Positions 8,890 through 20,342 of a stretch of DNA of 36,132 nucleotides are shown here, piece after piece; within the stretch, counting starts at the first letter, position 1, and every line of letters starts with the position of its first letter. The notes under the pieces are model-generated. The model searched no databases. It worked only from the letters and a program-made list of their open reading frames with translations, and was not told the DNA's origin. The translations under genes were made by a program, and so were the position numbers. Source of the DNA: Oscillospiraceae bacterium. GTDB taxonomy: Bacteria > Bacillota > Clostridia > Oscillospirales > Oscillospiraceae. Where the stretch lies: assembly GCA_017444665.1 (NCBI GenBank), contig JAFSWC010000004.1, forward strand, positions 1-36,132. The letters run 5' to 3'.

Positions 8890-9822
8890 TTATTTGGTAA
8901 TGACCGTGCCGGTTTTTCCGGCAAGCGCGTCGGCCGCCTTTTCCAGCGACGTGATCAGCGCCGTGCCGCCGCTTTGGCGAACAAAATCCATGCAGGCCTC
9001 GATCTTCGGGCGCATGCTGCCCGGGGCAAACTCGCCCGCGGCCAGATAGCGCTCGCAGTCCGCAAGCGTCAGACGGTCAAGCTCCCGCTCGTCCGGTTTT
9101 TTATAGTTGACGCACACGCGCTCGACTGCCGTCAAGATCACCAGCCTGTCGGCGTGCACTTCGCGTGCAAGCAGGGCGCAGGCGCGGTCCTTGTCGATAA
9201 CCGCCGCAACGCCTTCAAGTCCGTCGGCCGTCTCCACGACGGGGATCCCTCCCCCGCCGACGGTGATGACGACGTCGCCCGCCGCGACAAGCTGCCTGAC
9301 CAGCTCAAGCTCGACGATGCGCTTGGGCAGCGGCGAGGGCACGACGCGGCGGTAGCCCCGTCCCGCGTCCTCAGCAAAGACATAGCCCTTGTCCGCGGCG
9401 ATTTTTTCCGCCTCTTCCTTTGCGTAAAAGCTGCCGACGGGCTTGCTGGGATGCCGGAAGCCGGGATCGTCCGGGTCGATGACGACCTGGGTGATCACGG
9501 CGGCGCAGGGCTTTTCGATCCCTCTTGCGCGCAGCGCGCGGGAAATCGCCTGCTGCAGGTGATAGCCGATATAGCCCTGGGTCATCGCGCCGCACTCCGG
9601 AAAGGGCATGGGCGGCGTGCCGCCGCCGCTGCGGGCGGAGAACTCCATCGCCAGGTTGATCATGCCGACCTGCGGGCCGTTGCCGTGGCCGATGACGACC
9701 TCGTAGCCTTGTTCGACCAGCGCGGCGATCGTTCCGGCCGTGTTCCGCACGAGCTCGCGCTGCTGCTCGGGCGTTTTTCCGAGCGCGTTGCCGCCGAGGG
9801 CAACTACGATCCTTTCCGCCAT
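8890..9822 (-). CDS. arcC: Carbamate kinase
   Basis: Last step of the arginine deiminase pathway: carbamoyl phosphate + ADP to ATP, CO2 and ammonia. 310 residues, normal length. Family signatures are VVALGGNALG at the start, VIGHGNGPQVG, the substrate loop region ECGAMTQGYIGYHLQQ, VITQVVIDPDDPGF, VITVGGGGIPV and AVIDKDRACALLA, and the C-terminal GSMRPKIEACMDFV. Cytoplasmic. It follows arcB by 6 bases in the operon arcA-arcB-arcC. The ATP made here is the energetic reason for the pathway. Confidence 0.96.
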   Translation of the reverse strand: MAERIVVALGGNALGKTPEQQRELVRNTAGTIAALVEQGYEVVIGHGNGPQVGMINLAMEFSARSGGGTPPMPFPECGAMTQGYIGYHLQQAISRALRARGIEKPCAAVITQVVIDPDDPGFRHPSKPVGSFYAKEEAEKIAADKGYVFAEDAGRGYRRVVPSPLPKRIVELELVRQLVAAGDVVITVGGGGIPVVETADGLEGVAAVIDKDRACALLAREVHADRLVILTAVERVCVNYKKPDERELDRLTLADCERYLAAGEFAPGSMRPKIEACMDFVRQSGGTALITSLEKAADALAGKTGTVITK

Positions 9823-9828
9823 GTCGGA

Positions 9829-10821
9829 TCAGTGCAGCGTGGCGTAGAGGACGGCCTTGATCGTGTGCATGCGGTTTTCCGCCTCGCGGAACTGGCGCGC
9901 GTGCGTGCCGAGGAAGACCTCGTCCGTGACTTCCATCGCCTCAAGGCCGAACTTCCGGTAGATCTCCTCGCCCACGGTGGTCTCGCGGTCGTGGAAGGCG
10001 GGCAGGCAGTGCATGAAGATGGCGTCCTGCCGGGCCTTTTCCATCAGCGCGCCGTTGACCTGATAGGGCAGCAAAAGCTTGATGCGCTGCTCCCAAAGCT
10101 CGGCCGGCTCGCCCATGGAAAGCCAGATGTCGGTATAGAGAATATCGCAGTCCTTCGCGCCCTGGGCCGGGTCGTCGGTAAACTCCAGAATCGCGCCGGT
10201 CTCGCCGGCGATCTCGTGGCACTTGTCGACGAGCCACTCCGCGGGCATCAGTTCCTTCGGGCCGCAGGCGCAGTAGTGCAGGCCAAGCTTGGCGCAGACG
10301 ACCATGAGGGAATTGGCCACGTTGTTGCGAGCGTCGCCGAAGAAGGTCAGCTTGCGGCCGCGGATATCGCCGAACTCCTCACGCGCGGTGAGCATGTCCG
10401 CCAGCATCTGGGTTGGGTGGAAATCGTCGGTCAGGCCGTTCCAGACCGGGACGCCGGAATACCTTGCCAGATCCTCGACGACAGACTGCTTGTATCCTCG
10501 GTATTCGATGCCGTCATACAGCCGGCCGAGCACCTTGGCGGTGTCGGCGAGAGACTCCTTCTTGCCCATCTGCGACGAGCCGGGATCCAGGAAGGTGACG
10601 CCCATGCCGAGATCGCGCGCGGCCACCTCGAAGGAGCAGCGCGTGCGGGTGGAGGTCTTTTCGAACAGCAGGACGATCTGCTTGTCGCCGAGCCATTTGT
10701 GCTGCGTGCCGGTCTGCTTCATGCGCTTGAATTCTGCCGCGAGGTCAAGAAGATAGTTGATTTCCTCAGGGCTGTAGTCCAGAAGCGTGAGAAAGCTTCT
10801 GCCGCGGATGTTGAGTGCCAT
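9829..10821 (-). CDS. arcB: Ornithine carbamoyltransferase, catabolic
   Basis: 330 residues. Phosphorolyses citrulline to ornithine and carbamoyl phosphate in the deiminase pathway. Carbamoyl-phosphate site STRTR (57-61), FHPTQMLAD, and the ornithine-side motif HCLPAF are all present. Sequence alone cannot separate anabolic ArgF from catabolic ArcB, but its place between arcA and arcC argues for ArcB. ATG 10821 has AGGAGGAAC upstream, and 43 bases separate it from arcA. Confidence 0.95.
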   Translation of the reverse strand: MALNIRGRSFLTLLDYSPEEINYLLDLAAEFKRMKQTGTQHKWLGDKQIVLLFEKTSTRTRCSFEVAARDLGMGVTFLDPGSSQMGKKESLADTAKVLGRLYDGIEYRGYKQSVVEDLARYSGVPVWNGLTDDFHPTQMLADMLTAREEFGDIRGRKLTFFGDARNNVANSLMVVCAKLGLHYCACGPKELMPAEWLVDKCHEIAGETGAILEFTDDPAQGAKDCDILYTDIWLSMGEPAELWEQRIKLLLPYQVNGALMEKARQDAIFMHCLPAFHDRETTVGEEIYRKFGLEAMEVTDEVFLGTHARQFREAENRMHTIKAVLYATLH

Positions 10822-10864
10822 GATGTGTTCCTCCTGATATGATTTATGATGGTTCGTTCGTCTG

Positions 10865-12091
10865 TTATTCCGCGCGGATGAGCGGCATGGACATGCAGCG
10901 CGGGCCGCCGCGGCCGCGCGAGAGCTCCGCCGACGGGATCTCCAGGATCTCGACGCCGTTTTCGCGCAGAATGGGGTTGGTCACGTCGTTGCGCTCGTAG
11001 ACGATCACCTTTCCCGGTGCGATGGCCAGCGTGTTCGATCCGTCGTTCCACTGTTCGCGCGCCGCAGCGATCATGTCGTCGCCGCCGCAGTAGATCAGCT
11101 TTACCCGCTCGGTATGCGTGTATTTTTCCAGGATGTTTTCCAGCGTCGCGTCGATGCGCTCGATATGCAGCTCGGCCGGGTCGTGCGTGCCGGGCGTGAT
11201 CTCATAGACCGTCAGCGGGCCGATGATCGCCGGGTGGACGATATACTTGTCCGTGTCGACCTGGGTAAAGACCGTGTCAAGGTGCATAAAGGCGCGGGAG
11301 GACGGGATGGCAAAGGCCAGCACCGTGCGCACGGTGGACTCGGGATCGGAGAAGAGGCGGCGCGCGACCCGCTCGATCCCGTCGGGCGAGGTGCGCTCGG
11401 AAATGCCGATGGCGATCGTATCGGCGGTCAGGTTCAGCACGTCGCCGCCCTCGATGCTGGCGTGGTCGGTGCGGTCGCAATAGCGGCGCACGTCGGTAAA
11501 GTCGGGGTGATAGCGGAAGATGTAGTCGGCGTAGATCGTCTCACGCCGGCGCGTGGCATAGTGCATGCGGTTGATCAGCACGCCCGTGCCGACCGAGGCG
11601 AAGGGGTCGCGCGTGAAATACAGATTCGGCATCGGGTCGACGACGATATCGTCGGCCGGGGCGATCATGTCCTGCAGGGAATAGGCCGAGGCGCCGCCGA
11701 TCTCCTTGAGGGCGATGCCCTCCATCGTTTTTTCGACCAGCGCCTTGCCCGCGTAGTTGTCCAGCATATAGTCGCACAGCTTTTCGCGCCATTTGCCGGT
11801 TCTGATGTTGCCCTCGCTGAGCCATTGAAGCAGGAAGGGACGGACAAGCTCCGGATGCAGGGCCAGCACGTCGGTCATCAGATCCTCGAGATAGACGACC
11901 TCGACGCCGTTTTCCCGCAGCACGGCGGCAAAGGCGTCGTGCTCGCGCTGGGCGACCCTGAGGAAGGGGATGTCGTCAAAGAGCAGCTCGTCCAGGCGCT
12001 TGGGCGTCAGCTTCAGCAGTTCTTTTCCCGGGCGGTGCAGCAGCACGCGCTTCAGGGGCCGGATCTCGTTTTTGACACAGATACCTTTCAT
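10865..12091 (-). CDS. arcA: Arginine deiminase
   Basis: 408 residues. Hydrolyses arginine to citrulline and ammonia in the cytoplasm. Guanidino-modifying-enzyme motifs are present: [31 protein letters not shown] (catalytic His/Asp region) and the catalytic Cys399 in [10 protein letters not shown] near the C-terminus. ATG 12091 has AGGAG at good spacing. It heads arcABC, and argS lies immediately upstream in the same direction but is separated by a terminator hairpin. No clear promoter can be picked out in the 128-base gap, so expression may depend on readthrough or an atypical promoter. No arginine/ornithine antiporter (arcD) is in the window. Confidence 0.96.
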
Positions 12092-12115
12092 GTTCCGCTC
12101 CTACAAAAATTTTCC

Positions 12116-12130
12116 TTTTGCCTGGCAAAA
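12116..12130. promoter_or_regulatory. Short palindrome upstream of arcA
   Basis: TTTTGCC-T-GGCAAAA, a perfect 7-1-7 palindrome 25 bases before the arcA ATG and directly after the argS terminator. It could be a protein-binding site or only part of the terminator tail; it does not resemble the ArgR/AhrC box I know. Confidence 0.3.
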
Positions 12131-12160
12131 CAAAAGGTACAGCGAACACCGTACCTTTTG
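12126..12160 (-). terminator. Terminator between argS and arcA
   Basis: Perfect 10-bp stem CAAAAGGTAC / GTACCTTTTG with a 10-base loop. On the minus strand the 3' arm runs into TTTTGTTTTG. Confidence 0.7.
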
Positions 12161-12219
12161 ATTCGTGTGAAGGCGGCGCAGCGGCGCCCTCTCACGGCTT
12201 TTCTATGCAGATGGGGCGC

Positions 12220-13884
12220 TTACATCGACTCCGGCGCGGAGACGCCGATGAGGGACAGCGCGTTTTTCAGCGTGATCATCGTGGCGGTCACGAGACCGAG
12301 ACGCTGGTTGGTAAGCTCGGGGTCGTCGGGGTTGTTGACCTTGACGGCGTTGTAATAGCTGTGGAAGGTCTTGACGAGGGATATGATATACTCCGTCATC
12401 TTGTTGGGCTTGCGCAGCGCGGCGTCGGCGGCGACCTCCGACGGGAATTCACCGATCTTTTTCAGCAGCAGCAGCTCCCGCTCGTCATCAAGCCGGTCAT
12501 AGCGCTCGACACGCTCGAACCGGGCGATCTTGGGATTGTTCAAAATCGAGTTCATGCGGGAATGGGCGTACTGGGCGTAATAGACGGGGTTGTCGTTGTC
12601 GCGGCTGCGGGCCAGCTTGAGATCGAGATCCATATGGGTGGAAACGTCCTTTGCCACGAAGAACCACCGCGCGGCGTCCAGCCCGATGTCGTCGCACAGC
12701 TCGCGCAGTGTCAGCGCGTTGCCGGTGCGCTTGGACATCTTGACCTCCTTGCCGTCCTCGACCATGCGGACCATCTGGATCAGGTCGACCTCCAGCGTGT
12801 CGGCCGGATAGCCGAGCGCGGTCAGCGCGGCCTGCATGCGGGTGATATACGAATGGTGGTCGGCGCCCCAGAGATCGACCAGCTTGGGATAGCCGCGCTC
12901 GATCTTGTAGACGTGGTTGGCGATGTCGGGCGTGAGGTACGAAAGCGTCCCGTCGCTCTTGCGCAGCACGCGGTCCTTGTCGTCGCCGTAGTCGGTCGAG
13001 CGGAACCAAAGCGCGCCGTCCTGCTCGTAAAGCAGGCCCTTTTCCTGCATCAGCCGCAGACAGTCGTTGATGCGCTTGCGGTCGTTTTCATAGAAGAAGG
13101 TCTCGTGCATCCACGAATCGATCTTCACGCCGTAGGCCAGCAGATCCTTTTCGATCTTCTTCAGCTCCAGCTCCTTGCCGGTCTGCATGAAATAGGCCAT
13201 GCGCTCGTCCTCCGGCGCGTCGAGCCACTTGTCGCCGTCCTTTTCCGCGATCTCGTACGCGATCGCGCGCACGTCCTCGGCGTGATAGCCGTCCTCCGGC
13301 AGCGGATAATCGCTGCGGCCGAAGTATTCGAAATAACGCGCCGTCAGCGAGCGGCCGAGCATCACGATCTGGTTGCCGGCGTCGTTGACATAGTATTCGC
13401 GCAGCACATCGTAGCCGCTGGCCTCCAGCAGGCGGCAGATGCAGTCGCCCCAGGCGGCGTTGCGGGCGTGGCCGCAGTGCAGGTCGCCCGTCGGGTTGGC
13501 GCTGACCCACTCGACCAGGACGCGCTGTCCCCTGCCGCTGTCGTTGCGGCCGTAGCTGTCGGAAGCGTCGATGACCTTGTTGATCAATCCGCCCAGCGCG
13601 TCCTGCCGCAGGCGGAAGTTGATGAAGCCGGGCCGCGCGATCGAAACGTTTTCGACCTCGTGCTCAAGCAGCACGGAAAGCTTTGCCGCAAGCGGCTCGG
13701 CAATCTCCATCGGATTGCGCCGCAGCGTGCGGGACAGCTTCATCGCCACGTTGGTGGAATAGTCGCCAAACTTGGGATCCTGCGGCGTTTCGACCACATA
13801 CAGCCCGTCCTCCGGCGTAAGGTCATAGGCCGCCTGCACAGCCTCGCGCACGGCGGAAAAGATCTTGCTTTCAAAATCGCTCAT
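12220..13884 (-). CDS. argS: Arginyl-tRNA synthetase
   Basis: Class I aminoacyl-tRNA synthetase charging tRNA-Arg; 554 residues, normal length. The N-terminal tRNA-binding domain leads to VEWVSANPTGDLHCGHARNA, the HIGH motif in its HCGH form. KMSKRTGN supplies the KMSKS signature. The C-terminal DALR-like anticodon domain ends RLGLVTATMITLKNALSLIGV. ATG 13884 follows GGAGGAGAGG. The leader predicted from the promoter at 13950 is about 60 bases, too short for a T-box, and none is seen. Immediately downstream are the arginine catabolism genes, so charging and degradation of arginine are neighbours. Confidence 0.97.
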   Translation of the reverse strand: MSDFESKIFSAVREAVQAAYDLTPEDGLYVVETPQDPKFGDYSTNVAMKLSRTLRRNPMEIAEPLAAKLSVLLEHEVENVSIARPGFINFRLRQDALGGLINKVIDASDSYGRNDSGRGQRVLVEWVSANPTGDLHCGHARNAAWGDCICRLLEASGYDVLREYYVNDAGNQIVMLGRSLTARYFEYFGRSDYPLPEDGYHAEDVRAIAYEIAEKDGDKWLDAPEDERMAYFMQTGKELELKKIEKDLLAYGVKIDSWMHETFFYENDRKRINDCLRLMQEKGLLYEQDGALWFRSTDYGDDKDRVLRKSDGTLSYLTPDIANHVYKIERGYPKLVDLWGADHHSYITRMQAALTALGYPADTLEVDLIQMVRMVEDGKEVKMSKRTGNALTLRELCDDIGLDAARWFFVAKDVSTHMDLDLKLARSRDNDNPVYYAQYAHSRMNSILNNPKIARFERVERYDRLDDERELLLLKKIGEFPSEVAADAALRKPNKMTEYIISLVKTFHSYYNAVKVNNPDDPELTNQRLGLVTATMITLKNALSLIGVSAPESM

Positions 13885-13993: not shown

Positions 13994-14782
13994 TCAGCCG
14001 TAGGTGTGCATACCGTGCAGCAGCGTGTTGACCCCCGCAAAGGTGAAGAACACGACAAAAACCGCGATCACAAGATACCAGGCCATCTGTCTGCCCTTCT
14101 TTTTGCCGCGCAGACGCAGATGGAGATAGACCGCGTAAATGATCCAGGTGATCAGCGCCCAGACCTCCTTGGGGTCCCAGGTCCAGAATGCGGACCAGGC
14201 CTGTTCGGCCCAGATCGCGCCGGAGAGGATCACGACCGTGAGGAAGAGAAAACCGAAGCTGACGAGACGGTAGCTTAAAAAGTCCATCTGATCAAGGGCC
14301 TTCTGGTTATCGCTCTCTTTTTTCGACAGGATCAGATAGCGCGCGCCGATGCACCCGGCAATGACGAAGGCCGCGTACGACAGCACGGCCGAGCCGATAT
14401 GCACGCCGAACCACGCGCTGCGCAGCGCGGGCATCAGATCGCGGATCTCCATCGGCTGAAGCGCGGCATAGGTCATGATCAGCAGCGTCACGGGGATCGC
14501 CGCGACCTTGAGCCAGTCGGTCTTCATCCGGGTGCAGACGGCGATCGTAAAGAGCGCGACGCCCCAGGCAAAGCCATTGGCAAATTCAAACTGGTTCGAC
14601 AGCGGCAGCCGCTTTGCCGCGACGCCGCGCGCGGCGAGAAAGACCGTGTGCAGCGCAAAGGCCGCGATAAACGCGATCCAGGCAAGGCGCAGCAGTTTTT
14701 CCTTTCGGAAGGCCGTGCCGGTAAATTCCAGGATCACGGATACGGCGTAAGCCGCAAAAGCGATAAAAAACAGGGCTTTCAT
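13994..14782 (-). CDS. ccsA: Cytochrome c biogenesis protein CcsA (ResC-type heme handling/lyase subunit)
   Basis: 262-residue, roughly eight-helix membrane protein. With ResB it exports heme and attaches it to CXXCH motifs outside the membrane (system II). The tryptophan-rich WWD motif is WAEQAWSAFWTWDPKEVW (191-208), and conserved heme-ligand histidines are visible at 128 (WFGVHIG) and 256 (LLHGMH). Its ATG overlaps the resB stop by 4 bases (ATGA), so the two are coupled. The pair is downstream of nrfA, whose first heme motif is CXXCK. In Wolinella a dedicated CcsBA-type lyase (NrfI) serves that motif, so this split pair is a fair candidate for the same job. Confidence 0.92.
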   Translation of the reverse strand: MKALFFIAFAAYAVSVILEFTGTAFRKEKLLRLAWIAFIAAFALHTVFLAARGVAAKRLPLSNQFEFANGFAWGVALFTIAVCTRMKTDWLKVAAIPVTLLIMTYAALQPMEIRDLMPALRSAWFGVHIGSAVLSYAAFVIAGCIGARYLILSKKESDNQKALDQMDFLSYRLVSFGFLFLTVVILSGAIWAEQAWSAFWTWDPKEVWALITWIIYAVYLHLRLRGKKKGRQMAWYLVIAVFVVFFTFAGVNTLLHGMHTYG

Positions 14783-16029
14783 GGTTCTTCGTCCTTTCTC
14801 TCATAGGCTTCGAATCCCGCGCCGAGCTCGACGCGCATGCGCTCCGGCTTCGGTCCGCCGACAGCATAGCCGTCCTTGTCAAGCTTGACAAGGATCGGGT
14901 CGCAGAAAAAGGTGATATACAGCGCCGCGGTCATCAGCGCGAAAACCGCGATCAGAAGCGCGTTGACAGCAGGGGGCGTGCGCTTGATGCGCAGACCCGG
15001 ATACTCAACCGGGTCGTTGAAGCGAAAGACAAGGCCGCCGGTTTCGATCTCATCGCCCGGGAAAACGAGCAGCGAGCGATACTGGCCGCCTTCGGAGACG
15101 ATGATTTCATAAACAGGGTTGGCATAGCGGCCCGAGACGGAGGAGATCAGCGTCACGTTCCCGCTCGGGTCCTGCAGATAGTCGGGATAAAGCGCCTGAT
15201 ACCAGATCCCGCTCACCCCATCGAGGGAGAGAAAGACCGTGTCGGTCAGCGTAAAGTCGTCCTCGCCGCCGTTCGCGGGATTTCGCACCGTGACCGAGCC
15301 GGCCGTGCCGTAGGTCTGCTGATAGACCTTATAGGGGCCGAAGGACATCGGATAGTTCACGCGGATCTGCTTTGTCTCGCTGTGCCGCCCGTCCGGCAGC
15401 TTGATGCGGATCTCGCTGGTGAAGTCCAGCCGCCCGCTCTCGTCCTCGATGGAAAAGTCGTAGGCGCGGATCTCGGTGCCGTCCGGCATCATGACCGATT
15501 CGCCCGGCAGGCAGGTCTGATCGGTCACCTGGGGCAGATACAGCGCCGCCGCGCCGACGATCACCGTCAGCAGGATGGACAGGTGGGTCAGAAAGCTGCC
15601 GTAGCGGCCGAAGCTGTTTTTGGTGAAGATCTCGCTCTCGCCGATCTTCTCGCCCCGGCAGCGCATCGCGACGAGATGGTCGCGCAGCTTGTCCACGCCC
15701 TCCGGTGTAAGGCGCACCGTATCCGGCAGCTTCGATGCGCGCTCGCGCTCGGTTTTGCTCGACGCGACGACGCTGCGGATGCGCACGATCGAACAGAGGA
15801 TCAGATTGAGGCACAGCATCACAAGGATCGCGATGAAATACCAGGCGGAAAAGATGCGGTCGAGCCCCAGCCTGAGGATCGGGGCGTATGTACCGGGATA
15901 GTTCTGAACGTACCACATCGCCTCGTGCTCCTGCGGGATGACCGAGCCGATCACGGAGCAGACGGCGACAAGCGAAAGCAGCAGGATGCCGAAGCGCATG
16001 GAGCGCAGGAACGACAGGACTTTTTTCAT
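14779..16029 (-). CDS. resB: Cytochrome c biogenesis protein ResB (Ccs1)
   Basis: 416 residues. Partner of CcsA in the system II heme lyase. The N-terminus MKKVLSFLRSMRFGILLLSLVAVCSVIGSVIPQ is the ResB start, with the conserved SxxxG..L...A..S.IGS pattern. Helices follow at about 70-90 and 150-170, then a large extracytoplasmic domain and a last helix near FALMTAALYITFF. ATG 16029 is preferred to GTG 16038, since AGGAAG lies 8 bases before it. A GC-rich hairpin with four T separates it from nrfA, probably lowering its expression relative to the cytochrome. Confidence 0.9.
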   Translation of the reverse strand: MKKVLSFLRSMRFGILLLSLVAVCSVIGSVIPQEHEAMWYVQNYPGTYAPILRLGLDRIFSAWYFIAILVMLCLNLILCSIVRIRSVVASSKTERERASKLPDTVRLTPEGVDKLRDHLVAMRCRGEKIGESEIFTKNSFGRYGSFLTHLSILLTVIVGAAALYLPQVTDQTCLPGESVMMPDGTEIRAYDFSIEDESGRLDFTSEIRIKLPDGRHSETKQIRVNYPMSFGPYKVYQQTYGTAGSVTVRNPANGGEDDFTLTDTVFLSLDGVSGIWYQALYPDYLQDPSGNVTLISSVSGRYANPVYEIIVSEGGQYRSLLVFPGDEIETGGLVFRFNDPVEYPGLRIKRTPPAVNALLIAVFALMTAALYITFFCDPILVKLDKDGYAVGGPKPERMRVELGAGFEAYERKDEEP

Positions 16030-16046
16030 AAGCAGCACTTCCTGTT

Positions 16047-16102: not shown

Positions 16103-17713
16103 TCAGCTGTCGGCGCGGAGCAGGTTGATGGCCTTGTTGGTCAGCTCCTCGGCCTTGTCAAGAAGCGCGTCCGTCAGCTTCGGGTTGTGGGCGCCCTCGC
16201 TGTTTTCGACAAACACAAAGTCCCAATAGAACTGGGCGTCGCGCGCAAGGGAGCGGACCTCGTTGAGCCTGGTTTCGCTGACCGCGCCGCCTTCGACCGC
16301 GGTTGCAAGCTGCTCGGTCAAAAACTCAAGCTCATAGCCGATGGAGTATGTACGCGCCTCGATGCGCTCCTGGGTCTCATGGACCTCGGTGACAAGGTCG
16401 ACGTGGCACTTGGAGCACTCGTTTTCGATCAGCTCGGGGTTGTCAAGCGGGCTGATGAGGTTATGGCTGCGGTAGGTCATGCCGTTGTCCTTGGTCGCGG
16501 TGGGCATGTGGCAGTCGGCGCAGGTGTAGGTCGCGCGGTGCTGGCTGCCCTCGCCGAGATAGGTCTCGAACTCGGGGTGCTGCACCTTGATCTGCTGGAC
16601 GCCGGTGCGCGGGTTGGTATAGTCGGCAAAGACCTTGCCGTCGGAGAAGTTCGAGCCGTCGTTGAAGAAGGCCAGCATCGTCGAGGGGTCCATGCTCTCG
16701 ATCGAGTTGTGGGCGATCTTGGTCTCCTTGGTGACGGGATCGAAGTAATATTCGTTGTGGCACTGGCCGCAGGACATGTTCGCGGCGTCGACGCTGTTGA
16801 AGTCGTCGCCGAGCGCGTCGATCCAGTAGGTGTGGGTCACCGTGATCTGGCCCGGCGTGTTGGCGTGGCAGTTATAACAGCTGATGCCCTCGACGATGTG
16901 CTGCTGCACGTCGGTCCAGGCGTACTGATAGGCCTCGACGCCCTCCTCGTTGACCATGTTGGTAAAGTCCGGGGTCTTGCAGGTCCAGCAGTTGGCAAGC
17001 GCGTGGGGCCGTCCGGTCTCTTCGATGTCCACGACGTCGTAATAGTGGCCTCTGGCGCTGCCGTAGCAGAAGGAAAAGCCGTACGGCTCATAGAGCGTGG
17101 GGAGCATCGGATACTGCACAAGGTAGTCGACGATCTCGTCGCTCTCGCGCGTCATGTTCCAGCTTTCATAGATCTCGGGGTACTTCTCGGCCCAGTCGGC
17201 GGCGTGCAGCACCGTAACGCCGGAGTGCGTCTCGACCTGGGCGGCGATCTGCTCGACCTTGATGATCGAACCGCCGAAGTTGGCCGGATCGAGCCCGCCG
17301 CTCTTGAGGGCGTTGAAGATAGCGGCCTTGATGCCGTCGGACGAGAGCGTCGCGCCGGAGACAGCGTCGACCTTCAGGCTCTGCGCGTCATAGATGATCC
17401 TGGGCAGGGACAAAATCGCCTTCGAGCCGATCCCTTCCGTCTCTTCATCCTCGAGGATCTTGATCTGATAGATATGATCGTTGGTCGCGGCGATCTGGAC
17501 GGTAATATCGGCGTTGCGGCCCATGGCCGTACCGGTCAGCGTCAGGGCGCCGGCAGGCACCTCGCTGTCGGCCACGCCGGCCTGCCGCCCCGCAGCGCCG
17601 GAGACGGCGTTTCCGATGGCGACCGCGACGATGAACAGGCCGCACAGAATGGCGACCAGATCGTCCTTTCGCAGCTTTTTCCACAGTGCAAGAAGCTTCT
17701 CGTGAAGTTTCAT
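16103..17713 (-). CDS. nrfA: Membrane-anchored FMN_bind-NrfA fusion: ammonia-forming cytochrome c nitrite reductase
   Basis: 536 residues in three parts. Residues 19-40 are a membrane anchor without a cleavage site. Residues ~55-137 form an FMN_bind domain with DAVSGATLSS (116-125), where a Ser/Thr (probably S124) would carry covalent FMN added by ApbE. Residues ~160-536 are NrfA, which reduces nitrite to ammonium with six electrons. Five heme motifs are seen: CWTCK (242-246, the Lys-ligated active-site heme), CYNCH (279-283), CGQCH (315-319), CADCH (398-402) and CSKCH (433-437). NEYYF and QHPEFETY carry the active-site Tyr and His (H379) seen in E. coli NrfA. No NrfH is encoded nearby, so the flavin domain may take its place. 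GGAGGG precedes ATG 17713, and a strong promoter lies upstream. Confidence 0.95.
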   Translation of the reverse strand: MKLHEKLLALWKKLRKDDLVAILCGLFIVAVAIGNAVSGAAGRQAGVADSEVPAGALTLTGTAMGRNADITVQIAATNDHIYQIKILEDEETEGIGSKAILSLPRIIYDAQSLKVDAVSGATLSSDGIKAAIFNALKSGGLDPANFGGSIIKVEQIAAQVETHSGVTVLHAADWAEKYPEIYESWNMTRESDEIVDYLVQYPMLPTLYEPYGFSFCYGSARGHYYDVVDIEETGRPHALANCWTCKTPDFTNMVNEEGVEAYQYAWTDVQQHIVEGISCYNCHANTPGQITVTHTYWIDALGDDFNSVDAANMSCGQCHNEYYFDPVTKETKIAHNSIESMDPSTMLAFFNDGSNFSDGKVFADYTNPRTGVQQIKVQHPEFETYLGEGSQHRATYTCADCHMPTATKDNGMTYRSHNLISPLDNPELIENECSKCHVDLVTEVHETQERIEARTYSIGYELEFLTEQLATAVEGGAVSETRLNEVRSLARDAQFYWDFVFVENSEGAHNPKLTDALLDKAEELTNKAINLLRADS

Positions 17714-18002: not shown

Positions 18003-20342
18003 TTAGTTCTTTTCTTCTTGGTAGTATTCCCAATGGTACCCATATGCTGTATGACTCTTTCCCGCCAAGCAAGCAGAAAGCGTTGTAGATGACTTGTTAT
18101 ACTTTCTCGCAGCATCTACAATTCCTTCAAACACTTCTCCTGTTTCAATATTTCTAACTGCTCTTTTCCTGCTCATGGCGGCTTTTTCTTTTCCGCAAAC
18201 AGGGCACCCAGTTGCTTGAAATTTCGTGCGATTTTGAATTGTTGTTATATAATGATTTCCACAAGTCGGGCAAATCCACCAAGCCTTTCGTGTAGATCCC
18301 GCAGAAACCTCCTCTGGCATGAAAGTATTATTAGAATAATCCCACTCCTTAACTATCTCGGGTCGTAGCGTCGCAAGATCATTATATCCCTTTAAAACCT
18401 TTTGTCCTGAACAGTAAGGACAATTGCATCCGTTATTTGTCCTCGTTATAACTCGCATTTCATATGAGTGACCTTTTGGACATATCCACCACCTTTTTTT
18501 GTTGCTATATGGAAGAACTTGATCTGGAGATAGTCCCCCGTTTTTCTGTTTATCCCACTGAGCGGCAATCTCAGGAAACGCAACCTCCAAAGTTATTTCA
18601 TTCTCTTTTGGTATTTGATTTTTCGCCCCAACTCTTTTTTGTGCACAGCGAGGGCAACCTGATCCTCTTTCTCTGTTGCAAGGAGCCGTTTCCCATTCTA
18701 ATCCGCAAGCCGAACATTTCCACCAATACTTCTTGGGGCTTGAGCAGATTACTTTATCGGGGGTAATCCCATTTTTTGAATAATCCCATTCAGATGCAAG
18801 AGCAGGATTTTTGGCCACAATATCGTTATACCCTGTTAGGAGTTGTTTGTTGTTACAAACGGGGCACCCAGTTCCATTTGTACGATTCTGTATGCTCGCC
18901 ATGTACGAGTGCCCTTCTGGGCATAACCACCACACTTTTTGATTACTACGGAGTGAGAACGATTCAGGCGAAATATTACTGTTTTTATTATAATCCCATT
19001 CTGCTAATAGAGATGGGTTTGCTACAGCGAAACTATTCTTCAATACATACTGTTTATATAAAGCAAGGATTTTTAGTCTGTCTCGATTGAAATCAATATC
19101 TTCGGAACAGTTAACATGTGTAATGCGTTCAAGCATTGTAACTAATGTCTTTATTGCATTGTCCAATGCTGAATAATTTGGTTTTAGTCTGTAATATATA
19201 GTATTGTCTTCTATTGCGTCTCTCTCTGAGTCTTCTTTGATTCGTATAAGAGTTACTCCCGTTTCCTGTAATAGTTTATTCTTCTTTTCCTCTTTCTGCC
19301 GACTCTTTTCTGATGAATGGTAGTATATCCCATCATACTCAATTCCAATATTATAGTCAGGTAAGAAAATATCTACTTCCACACCTTGTATTTTTGATCT
19401 GCTAACTAAATTGAAATGTGGAGCAAGATAAAACTGAATTGCCTGTTCAGGAAGAGACGTTTGTATAAAACCATTACATGTAGGACAGCCTACTCCTTTA
19501 ATGCGATTGTATGGCGGCGCTTGCCAAGAGTGTCCCTTTTCACATTTCCACCAAATTTTCTGACCTGAACTTGGGAGTATTTCTTCAGGAAGAAGTGGTT
19601 TGTTTTTTTCATAGTCCCATTCCTTAGCCAAATCGGGGTAAACAGTTTTTAAATCATTAGTTCCCGTTATTGCTATTCTTCCACTACAATATGGGCAACC
19701 ATGGTTTGAATTAGTTCTATCAGCAACTCTAGCATAATATGAATGTCCTTTAGGGCACTTCCACCATACTTTGTAATTTGCTTTTGCAAACACTTCTGCC
19801 ACTGGAATTGTATTTTTTAGATCATCATACTCTGCAGCGATTTCTGGAAACAAGCTCTGCAAGTCATCTACGCCAGTATTCACCTTTATATGTGCACAGT
19901 ATGGGCATCCTTTTCCATAAACTCGATTAGCAACTGTTGCTTCCCAACTCTTTCCGCATTTCTTGCATATCCAACCAACTTTAAGGCTGCTTCCATGGGA
20001 TATTTGTTTAGGATCGATGTCCTTATTCTTGCAATAATCCCATTCAGCGAGTAATTCAGGATGTGTGTTCGCAAGACTGTCTTCAAATGAGACCTGTCTT
20101 CGTTTTCTATCGCATTCTTTGTGTCCGCATACTGGACACCCACAACCATTAACTCGAGTTGTTACTGCGGTTTTCCAGCGGTTATTACACGTACCACATA
20201 TCCACCATACTTTTGTGGAACTACGCGAAGCTATGGTATACGGAGTTTCGGCTAGCTGTTTGTTGTTCTCGGCATCCCATTCAGCAAGAATATCTTGCCG
20301 ATTATTTCGTTCACACCATTCAGCAAGTGTAATTTTTCTCAT
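18003..20342 (-). CDS. Zinc-ribbon repeat protein with central Vsr/PD-(D/E)XK-like nuclease core and C-terminal NUMOD-like domain
   Basis: 779 residues, AT-richer than all its neighbours. Eight repeats share the pattern EWDY.KN...P..V...S..K.WW.C..GHSY.....R..G.GCPYC, a treble-clef/zinc-ribbon type with two Cys pairs, resembling DUF4379. Four lie in 1-290 and four in 445-720. Between them, residues 296-375 form a nuclease-like core: LPEQAIQFYL, then VEVDIFLPDYNIGIEYDG (D324, E335, D337), then LLQETGVTLIRIKED, the layout of Vsr/DUF559-type endonucleases. Residues 729-775 (NIETGEVFEGIVDAARKYN...AYGYHWEY) look like NUMOD1, a DNA-binding module of homing-type nucleases. ATG 20342 has AGGTGG upstream. 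It has its own promoter, operator-like palindrome and terminator, and sits beside a tRNA-Arg remnant array. A DNA-targeting or defence role is inference; the substrate is unknown. Confidence 0.85.
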   Translation of the reverse strand: MRKITLAEWCERNNRQDILAEWDAENNKQLAETPYTIASRSSTKVWWICGTCNNRWKTAVTTRVNGCGCPVCGHKECDRKRRQVSFEDSLANTHPELLAEWDYCKNKDIDPKQISHGSSLKVGWICKKCGKSWEATVANRVYGKGCPYCAHIKVNTGVDDLQSLFPEIAAEYDDLKNTIPVAEVFAKANYKVWWKCPKGHSYYARVADRTNSNHGCPYCSGRIAITGTNDLKTVYPDLAKEWDYEKNKPLLPEEILPSSGQKIWWKCEKGHSWQAPPYNRIKGVGCPTCNGFIQTSLPEQAIQFYLAPHFNLVSRSKIQGVEVDIFLPDYNIGIEYDGIYYHSSEKSRQKEEKKNKLLQETGVTLIRIKEDSERDAIEDNTIYYRLKPNYSALDNAIKTLVTMLERITHVNCSEDIDFNRDRLKILALYKQYVLKNSFAVANPSLLAEWDYNKNSNISPESFSLRSNQKVWWLCPEGHSYMASIQNRTNGTGCPVCNNKQLLTGYNDIVAKNPALASEWDYSKNGITPDKVICSSPKKYWWKCSACGLEWETAPCNRERGSGCPRCAQKRVGAKNQIPKENEITLEVAFPEIAAQWDKQKNGGLSPDQVLPYSNKKRWWICPKGHSYEMRVITRTNNGCNCPYCSGQKVLKGYNDLATLRPEIVKEWDYSNNTFMPEEVSAGSTRKAWWICPTCGNHYITTIQNRTKFQATGCPVCGKEKAAMSRKRAVRNIETGEVFEGIVDAARKYNKSSTTLSACLAGKSHTAYGYHWEYYQEEKN

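Follow-up and report, generated by a model that had tools for sequence, protein, structure and literature searches.

The partners known to feed the nitrite reductase NrfA, as set out in the available text of a 2025 review, are NrfH, CymA and NrfB(CD), all of them quinol-linked (PMC12285233), and heme 2 has been proposed as the point of electron entry in the known enzymes (PMC8840924, from the portion available). The nitrite-reducing acetogen Sporomusa ovata carries an ordinary NrfHA according to its authors' annotation, as given in the text available (PMC12780646). A survey of flavinylation, in the portion available, covers fumarate-reductase-like enzymes fused to FMN_bind and describes a modular flavin/cytochrome principle (PMC8238504); to this class belong Listeria FrdA and Shewanella UrdA (PF04205 + PF00890), extracytosolic reductases that have an ApbE-type flavin domain as input. 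The locus described below resembles these, but its catalytic module is a pentaheme NrfA, and the flavin domain would feed a multiheme cytochrome. The same survey reports 133 genomes in which NirS occurs with flavinylated NapH-like systems, a flavinylated chain with an extracytosolic nitrite reductase such as is proposed here, although NirS is a different enzyme, shares a gene cluster with the NapH-like protein and is not mentioned as a flavin-domain fusion in the available text (PMC8238504). Neither 'Nrf' nor 'c552' occurs in the main text of that survey, and neither 'Nrf' nor 'nitrite' in the available text of the follow-up (PMC11334425).

An rnf operon tied to an extracytosolic multiheme cytochrome, as is found in relatives of the present locus, is known from Methanosarcina acetivorans in the form of MmcA-Rnf (PMC11024163, available text). 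MmcA is a heptaheme conduit related to the octaheme tetrathionate reductases, whereas the linked cytochrome here is a terminal reductase and the organisms are Clostridia; according to the available text of the same source, MmcA does not occur in bacteria whose Rnf works between ferredoxin and NAD (PMC11024163). A search of open-licence texts on NrfA with FMN_bind, ApbE, flavinylation or Rnf yielded no title or abstract describing the wiring considered here, and it appears that the parts are known and their combination is undescribed within the literature searched.

The window analysed here is a stretch of 36,132 nucleotides from an Oscillospiraceae genome. In comparison with known NrfA its enzyme has an added transmembrane helix and an FMN_bind domain; in the 51 genomes examined neither an NrfH/CymA-type nor an NrfD partner was found, and signs of a quinone pathway are few. 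We consider it probable, judging from gene content and conserved residues, that the window encodes a membrane-anchored, extracytosolic, ammonia-forming NrfA that receives Rnf electrons through an FMN_bind domain flavinylated by ApbE, without quinol.

The fusion gene and its neighbourhood

The fusion gene lies on the minus strand at 16103..17713 as an open reading frame of 536 aa that runs from the ATG at 17713 to 16103 and has counterparts in relatives; the minus strand is a correction to the earlier note. In an ORF that overlaps it on the plus strand the GC falls on the first codon position instead of the third, and this ORF is therefore taken to be an antisense shadow. Hydropathy places a membrane helix at residues 19-37 (17603..17659, minus strand), the top 19-residue hydrophobic stretch of the protein beginning at residue 19, downstream of a basic stretch. 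A lipobox pattern search of the fusion protein gave no match. The N-terminus is presumably inside and the C-terminal domains outside. In the same open frame follow an FMN_bind domain at residues 65-137 (17303..17521, minus strand; PF04205, 52.8 bits against a cut-off of 22) and an NrfA pentaheme domain at residues 172-531 (16121..17200, minus strand; PF02335, 237.3 bits against 24.1), the latter also supported by alignment to solved NrfA sequences. The earlier reading of one protein with an N-terminal helix, an FMN_bind domain and a five-heme NrfA is thus borne out by the single frame, the Pfam matches and the hydropathy.

The five heme motifs are CWTCK, the lysine-type active-site motif (residues 242-246; 16976..16990, minus strand), CYNCH, CGQCH, CADCH and CSKCH. 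This pattern of one CXXCK and four CXXCH, under a PF02335 match above cut-off, places the domain among the NrfA pentaheme nitrite reductases, and it is shared, together with the active-site, Ca-site and most His-ligand columns, with the NrfA of E. coli, Wolinella and Desulfovibrio. The narrow NCBIfam NrfA models stay below cut-off (NF008339 195.6 of 595 bits; TIGR03152 157.4 of 692.5), and the window enzyme is a divergent NrfA outside those models. Its head is not an RnfG by the NCBIfam model (NF045876, 23.5 of 205 bits). The PF00890 catalytic domain that marks the FMN_bind fumarate-reductase-like class is absent from the window protein and present in one relative (L157), which combines FMN_bind, FAD_binding_2 (PF00890) and NrfA.

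Residue conservation was read from an alignment of 47 single-FMN fusions, namely the window and 46 of the 55 fused loci, picked for a single strong FMN match. The stretch SGATLSS, residues 119-125, contains the SGAT flavinylation motif (residues 119-122; 17348..17359, minus strand), and D116, G120, A121, T122 and S125 are present in 47/47 of the aligned fusions; S119 varies, and position 124 holds Ser in 24 fusions and Thr in the other 23. Ahead of the first heme [ST]GA[ST] occurs in 53 of the 56 fused proteins, the other three reading AGAT or GGAT. Another ApbE substrate was no longer flavinylated once the Thr of its predicted site had been replaced, according to the available text of the survey (PMC8238504), and since T122 is invariant while S119 and S124 vary, the Thr of [ST]GAT is the expected FMN carrier; S124, proposed earlier as the flavin site, is probably wrong. 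With PF04205 above cut-off, an [ST]GA[ST] motif and ApbE in the genome, the head has the sequence and genome marks expected of ApbE-flavinylated FMN_bind domains.

On the NrfA side R221, H223, K246, E321, Y322, K376, Q378, H379, H392, H417 and the four proximal His are found in all 47 fusions and H509 in 46. We take the aligned columns to be the active-site Arg, Tyr and His, the Ca-site Glu, Lys and Gln and the distal heme His. In a pairwise alignment R221, H223, E321, Y322, K376, Q378, H379, H417 and H509 face identical residues in 1gu6, and H392 lies one column off from the 1gu6 His, next to a gap; the active-site, Ca-site and distal-His positions of NrfA are thereby recovered from this alignment and the 47 fusions. 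The structure 1gu6 is E. coli NrfA (PMC12285233, in the part available). By their conserved residues both the FMN_bind and the NrfA module look functional.

Downstream of the fusion gene by 64 bases is ccsB/resB, a subunit of the System II cytochrome c synthase (14779..16038, minus strand; PF05140, start codon called mechanically), which is overlapped by 4 bases by a ccsA-type cytochrome c assembly gene (13994..14782, minus strand; PF01578 and TIGR03144 above cut-off, the NCBIfam name being CcsB). An all-against-all comparison found a resB-like gene at 78/81 loci and a ccsA-like gene at 75/81; of the loci where one of these genes was missed, two stop no more than 72 bases from nrfA and the other four do not. 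From their positions and lengths the other widespread clusters are read as other frames over the same genes, and an Rfam search returned only a tRNA.

Two further parts of the window were noted. Downstream of ccsA, window 8890-13884 (minus strand) holds an arginyl-tRNA synthetase and an arginine deiminase (PF02274) gene, followed by what we take to be ornithine carbamoyltransferase and carbamate kinase genes. Upstream of the fusion, window 18003-20342 (minus strand) encodes a protein of 779 aa that has eight zinc-finger-like DUF4379 repeats together with a weakly matching REase_MTES_1575 stretch. The region from 17.8 to 20.7 kb may be a lineage-specific insertion or replacement, since it is unaligned to the otherwise collinear L037.

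Distribution of the fusion and its flavin head

The earlier note had suggested searching genomes for PF04205 joined to PF02335, and such searches showed that the fusion recurs. A one-per-species genome scan gave 268 relatives, the best 80 of which were kept; with the window included, FMN_bind and NrfA share a frame at 56 of 81 loci, in a set that tilts toward fused forms because one of the six search peptides sits in the FMN domain. NrfA is without FMN_bind at 23 of the 81 loci, and two (L098, L104) are cut at a contig start. Among 101 same-genus genomes, which overlap in part with the records behind the 80 loci, reading of the match table gave 42 with the fusion, 24 with only unfused NrfA (one of them, G384, also has a head match cut by a contig end), 4 undetermined and 31 without NrfA. 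The 42 comprise 38 near-full-length one-frame fusions, 2 with a partial FMN match, one frame of 990 aa and one cut by a contig end. An order-level search of 295 genomes, those listed including no other of the window's genus, found the NrfA part in the window's own genome only; a class-level search of 391 genomes found it, among the matches listed, in its own genome and in four others, those four being unfused.

A caveat that applies to the window is that it comes from a MAG of 94 contigs that is 69% complete, and two relatives carry the fusion with two FMN domains, the first FMN_bind being out of frame with NrfA through a sequencing error or a real break (L069:9569-11789, L070:9866-12042). An assembly chimera, or a frameshift joining two neighbouring genes, nevertheless has next to no probability as an explanation of the window gene, the fusion being present at 56/81 loci and its flanks collinear with those of relatives. 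The contig aligns with L037-L039 in long blocks of ~73-85% DNA identity, and the Rnf regions of the window's genome and of L037's share 83-85% identity, which makes it unlikely that the contig is misbinned. Chimerism and misbinning were rejected in view of the collinear flanks together with the many independent fused loci.

The flavin head behaves as a portable module. Over window-protein residues 12-157, which take in the helix, identity to the heads of same-genus FMN_bind-FAD_binding_2 proteins (L158, L163) is 45-46%. The FMN domain of the window protein also has several matching domains in L159:1359-6716 (minus strand), a protein of 1785 aa that has seven FMN_bind and three FAD_binding_2 stretches and belongs to a same-genus genome with unfused NrfA. 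At four loci an FMN_bind gene stands directly upstream of the fusion (L050:7922-9964, L058:7817-9823, L064:7899-9821, L068:5412-7400), that of L050 encoding a TAT-signal FMN_bind-FAD_binding_2 protein. A quick tree was made from 85 NrfA domains, leaving out L098, L104 and L112; its branches are long. On it the fused/unfused label requires 5 changes, RnfG-type fusions occupy two places and an unfused group (L075, L080, L082, L084, L088) is nested among fused NrfAs. Shared heads, the tree changes and the nested group point to a probable exchange of heads, with loss in some cases; since the tree is quick, its branches long and the positions of L157 and L138 unsure, no number of fusion gains is claimed.

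This pattern bears on a reading in which the head serves chiefly to anchor the protein in the membrane, NrfA is supplied with electrons in some other way (by free multi-FMN proteins, for example), and its task is mostly to detoxify nitrite, NO or hydroxylamine. Relatives without NrfH have unfused NrfAs that are anchored or exported, including the group inside the fused clade, which shows that NrfA can do without a fused head; the large multi-FMN_bind protein L159 likewise accompanies an unfused NrfA. We nevertheless regard this reading as improbable, given that a mere anchor would not need T122, D116 and S125, which are kept in 47/47 aligned fusions, and that at least three architectures combine FMN_bind with NrfA.

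Electron partners and links to Rnf

Electron partners were sought in 51 genomes, namely the window's own, 41 others with a fused NrfA and 9 with an unfused one; most are MAGs and many incomplete. NrfH/NapC (PF03264) was found in 0/51, against 1 of 14 controls (E. coli), and no NrfH-like ORF beside nrfA was found at the loci. NrfD (PF03916) exceeded its cut-off in 0/51 and in 4 of 14 controls; one genome (G339) has a weak, stop-interrupted match. The tetraheme NrfH partner of an NrfHA complex and the NrfD of an NrfABCD system are accordingly both missing from the set, and all 9 unfused-NrfA genomes tested also lack NrfH. Known pathways to menaquinone require a UbiA-family prenyltransferase. A UbiA prenyltransferase was over cut-off in 6/51 genomes (any match in 8/51) and in 14/14 controls; five of the six positives are fused-NrfA genomes, and the window's own genome is without one. 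Single absences mean little in incomplete MAGs, but 0/51 does carry meaning.

That the window encodes an ordinary NrfA, fed by an NrfH/NapC- or NrfBCD-type quinol dehydrogenase encoded elsewhere and merely given an extra cofactor by the fusion, would agree with the known partners NrfH, CymA and NrfB(CD) in the available text of the 2025 review (PMC12285233) and with the incompleteness of the MAG. It is very unlikely in view of the zero counts for NrfH/NapC and for NrfD over cut-off and the few UbiA matches, and because, among ORFs of at least 80 aa at the 80 loci and in the window, all those with at least three CXXCH motifs had exactly five heme motifs.

ApbE is encoded by 47/51 genomes, with 2 copies in the window's own. 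It is absent with L040, L072, L087 and L094; three of the 42 fused genomes have no match, two of them carrying RnfG-type fusions (L072, L087). An RnfD-type protein occurs in 50/51, the exception being that of L051, one of the 42 fused. Single absences of ApbE or RnfD could be MAG gaps. Besides an rnfCDGEAB cluster, the window's own genome carries a second, Rnf-like one that includes apbE; the gene names were read from translations, and RnfD, FMN_bind and ApbE were confirmed with models. The second cluster, L117:10468-16929 (minus strand), holds apbE, an FMN_bind protein that reads GVTFSS in place of [ST]GAT, and a secreted-looking repeat protein. The periplasmic nitrate reductase model TIGR01706 was over its very high cut-off in 0/51 genomes, and the weaker matches in 13/51 could be other molybdopterin enzymes. 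The earlier note had remarked that no nrfH is encoded here and had held that a quinol dehydrogenase elsewhere in the genome, or the lack of apbE, would speak against a flavin-fed route. The remark holds both near nrfA and across the 51 genomes, and neither of the adverse findings was encountered; of the gene sets it had singled out for inspection, rnf is present in the window's own genome as rnfCDGEAB and a second, Rnf-like cluster, and no UbiA prenyltransferase was found there.

The guess that Rnf is the donor draws independent support from relatives in which RnfG domains or rnf genes are joined to NrfA. In L072, L100 and L103 one protein comprises RnfG, a second FMN_bind and NrfA, with TIGR01947 (RnfG) scores of 133.8, 141.7 and 127.2 against a cut-off of 102; each score sums two stretches, the best being N-terminal and covering nearly the whole model. 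The one-FMN_bind protein of L087 scores 89.9, below that cut-off, and the window head, shorter than those of the three, is likewise below the RnfG cut-offs. L103 derives from a Dysosmobacter MAG; at L103:9332-14879 the RnfG-FMN_bind-NrfA gene is directly followed by an unfused NrfA gene (424 aa, lipoprotein-like N-terminus) and then by ccsB and ccsA, and a mixed NrfA dimer is conceivable there.

Gene clusters provide the other link. The order at L105 is rnfC-rnfDG-rnfE-rnfA-rnfB-nrfA-ccsB-ccsA, with an unfused, anchored NrfA whose gene begins 6 bases after the rnfB-type gene, and the end of the incomplete locus L107 is identical in order. A further run, on the minus strand of L164 (782-11149), reads rnfC, rnfD-rnfG, rnfE, rnfA, an rnfB-type gene, a gene for a 973-aa TM-FMN_bind-FAD_binding_2-NrfA protein, ccsB and ccsA, and would place two putative terminal reductases on one flavin head. 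The rnfD-rnfG protein of L164 (527 aa) scores 207.0 with TIGR01946, whose cut-off is 207.05, and has an FMN_bind-type match with a custom model; for the RnfB-type proteins encoded at L105 and L164 the best matches are to models for RnfB and related iron-sulfur proteins, at scores below the NCBIfam cut-offs. The L164 genome has been placed in the window's genus with 92% completeness, an assignment that is unsure because of its 7% contamination and divergent NrfA.

As rnf genes adjoin nrfA at only 2/81 loci (L105 and L107, both with NrfAs that have no FMN head), and nrfA lies away from rnf in the window's own genome, the Rnf link is an analogy across relatives and does not come from the window's own locus. 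The same count speaks for a donor other than Rnf, with the FMN head still acting as the input. This donor could be a flavin-linked system of the membrane (an NqrB/RnfD-like, DUF4405, PepSY/MsrQ or NapH-like protein), or else a carrier that is soluble or extracellular. For flavinylated proteins the available texts of the two surveys describe several donors of this kind (PMC8238504, PMC11334425), and the second Rnf-like cluster of the window's genome comes with its own apbE. This alternative is clearly less likely, considering that Rnf is present in 50/51 genomes and that in relatives NrfA is linked directly with rnf genes or with an RnfG domain.

Proposed route and its meaning

The preferred reading, a flavin-fed and Rnf-linked NrfA, can be set out as a series of steps. 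The N-terminal helix would anchor the protein with both domains outside, as its sequence suggests; ApbE, by motif and co-occurrence, would attach FMN to T122, and ccsB and ccsA, by gene order, would attach the five hemes. Low-potential electrons would leave through the RnfG and RnfD flavins of Rnf and pass to the FMN on NrfA, a step modelled on the fusions and clusters of relatives. From what is known of the family the FMN would then reduce a surface heme of NrfA, and nitrite would be converted to ammonium at the lysine-ligated heme 1. Quinone would not be needed, and the whole would let fermenting gut Clostridia use nitrite as an electron sink driven by ferredoxin or NADH. The proposal in the earlier note that a covalent flavin replaces NrfH, with a flavin chain driving nitrite ammonification, thus finds support at the level of genomic inference.

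A broader proposal is offered tentatively, as one that we hold to be somewhat less probable than its failure. This would be a fourth, quinone-free class of NrfA wiring, in which the Rnf of herbivore-gut Clostridia acts as a respiratory ferredoxin:nitrite oxidoreductase and the RnfG-like flavinylated head of NrfA docks on RnfG or replaces it, the head being swapped among nitrite- and fumarate-type reductases and even combined with both within one polypeptide (FMN_bind-FAD_binding_2-NrfA).

Rumen nrfA clones have matched MAGs of Oscillospiraceae (4) and Prevotellaceae (6) in which, according to the available text of that study, nrfA was reported as the sole nitrate-to-ammonium gene (PMC11222294). 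A flavin-fed, Rnf-linked NrfA would bear on ammonium formation in the rumen and on the balance of hydrogen and methane. The proposal also makes a prediction on Rnf itself, namely that its outer flavin can supply enzymes besides its role in NAD reduction, and the recurrent fusions that contain RnfG, FMN_bind and FAD domains are ready test proteins. If the route is as proposed, fermenters without quinone could dispose of electrons from ferredoxin or NADH by passing them to extracellular nitrite.
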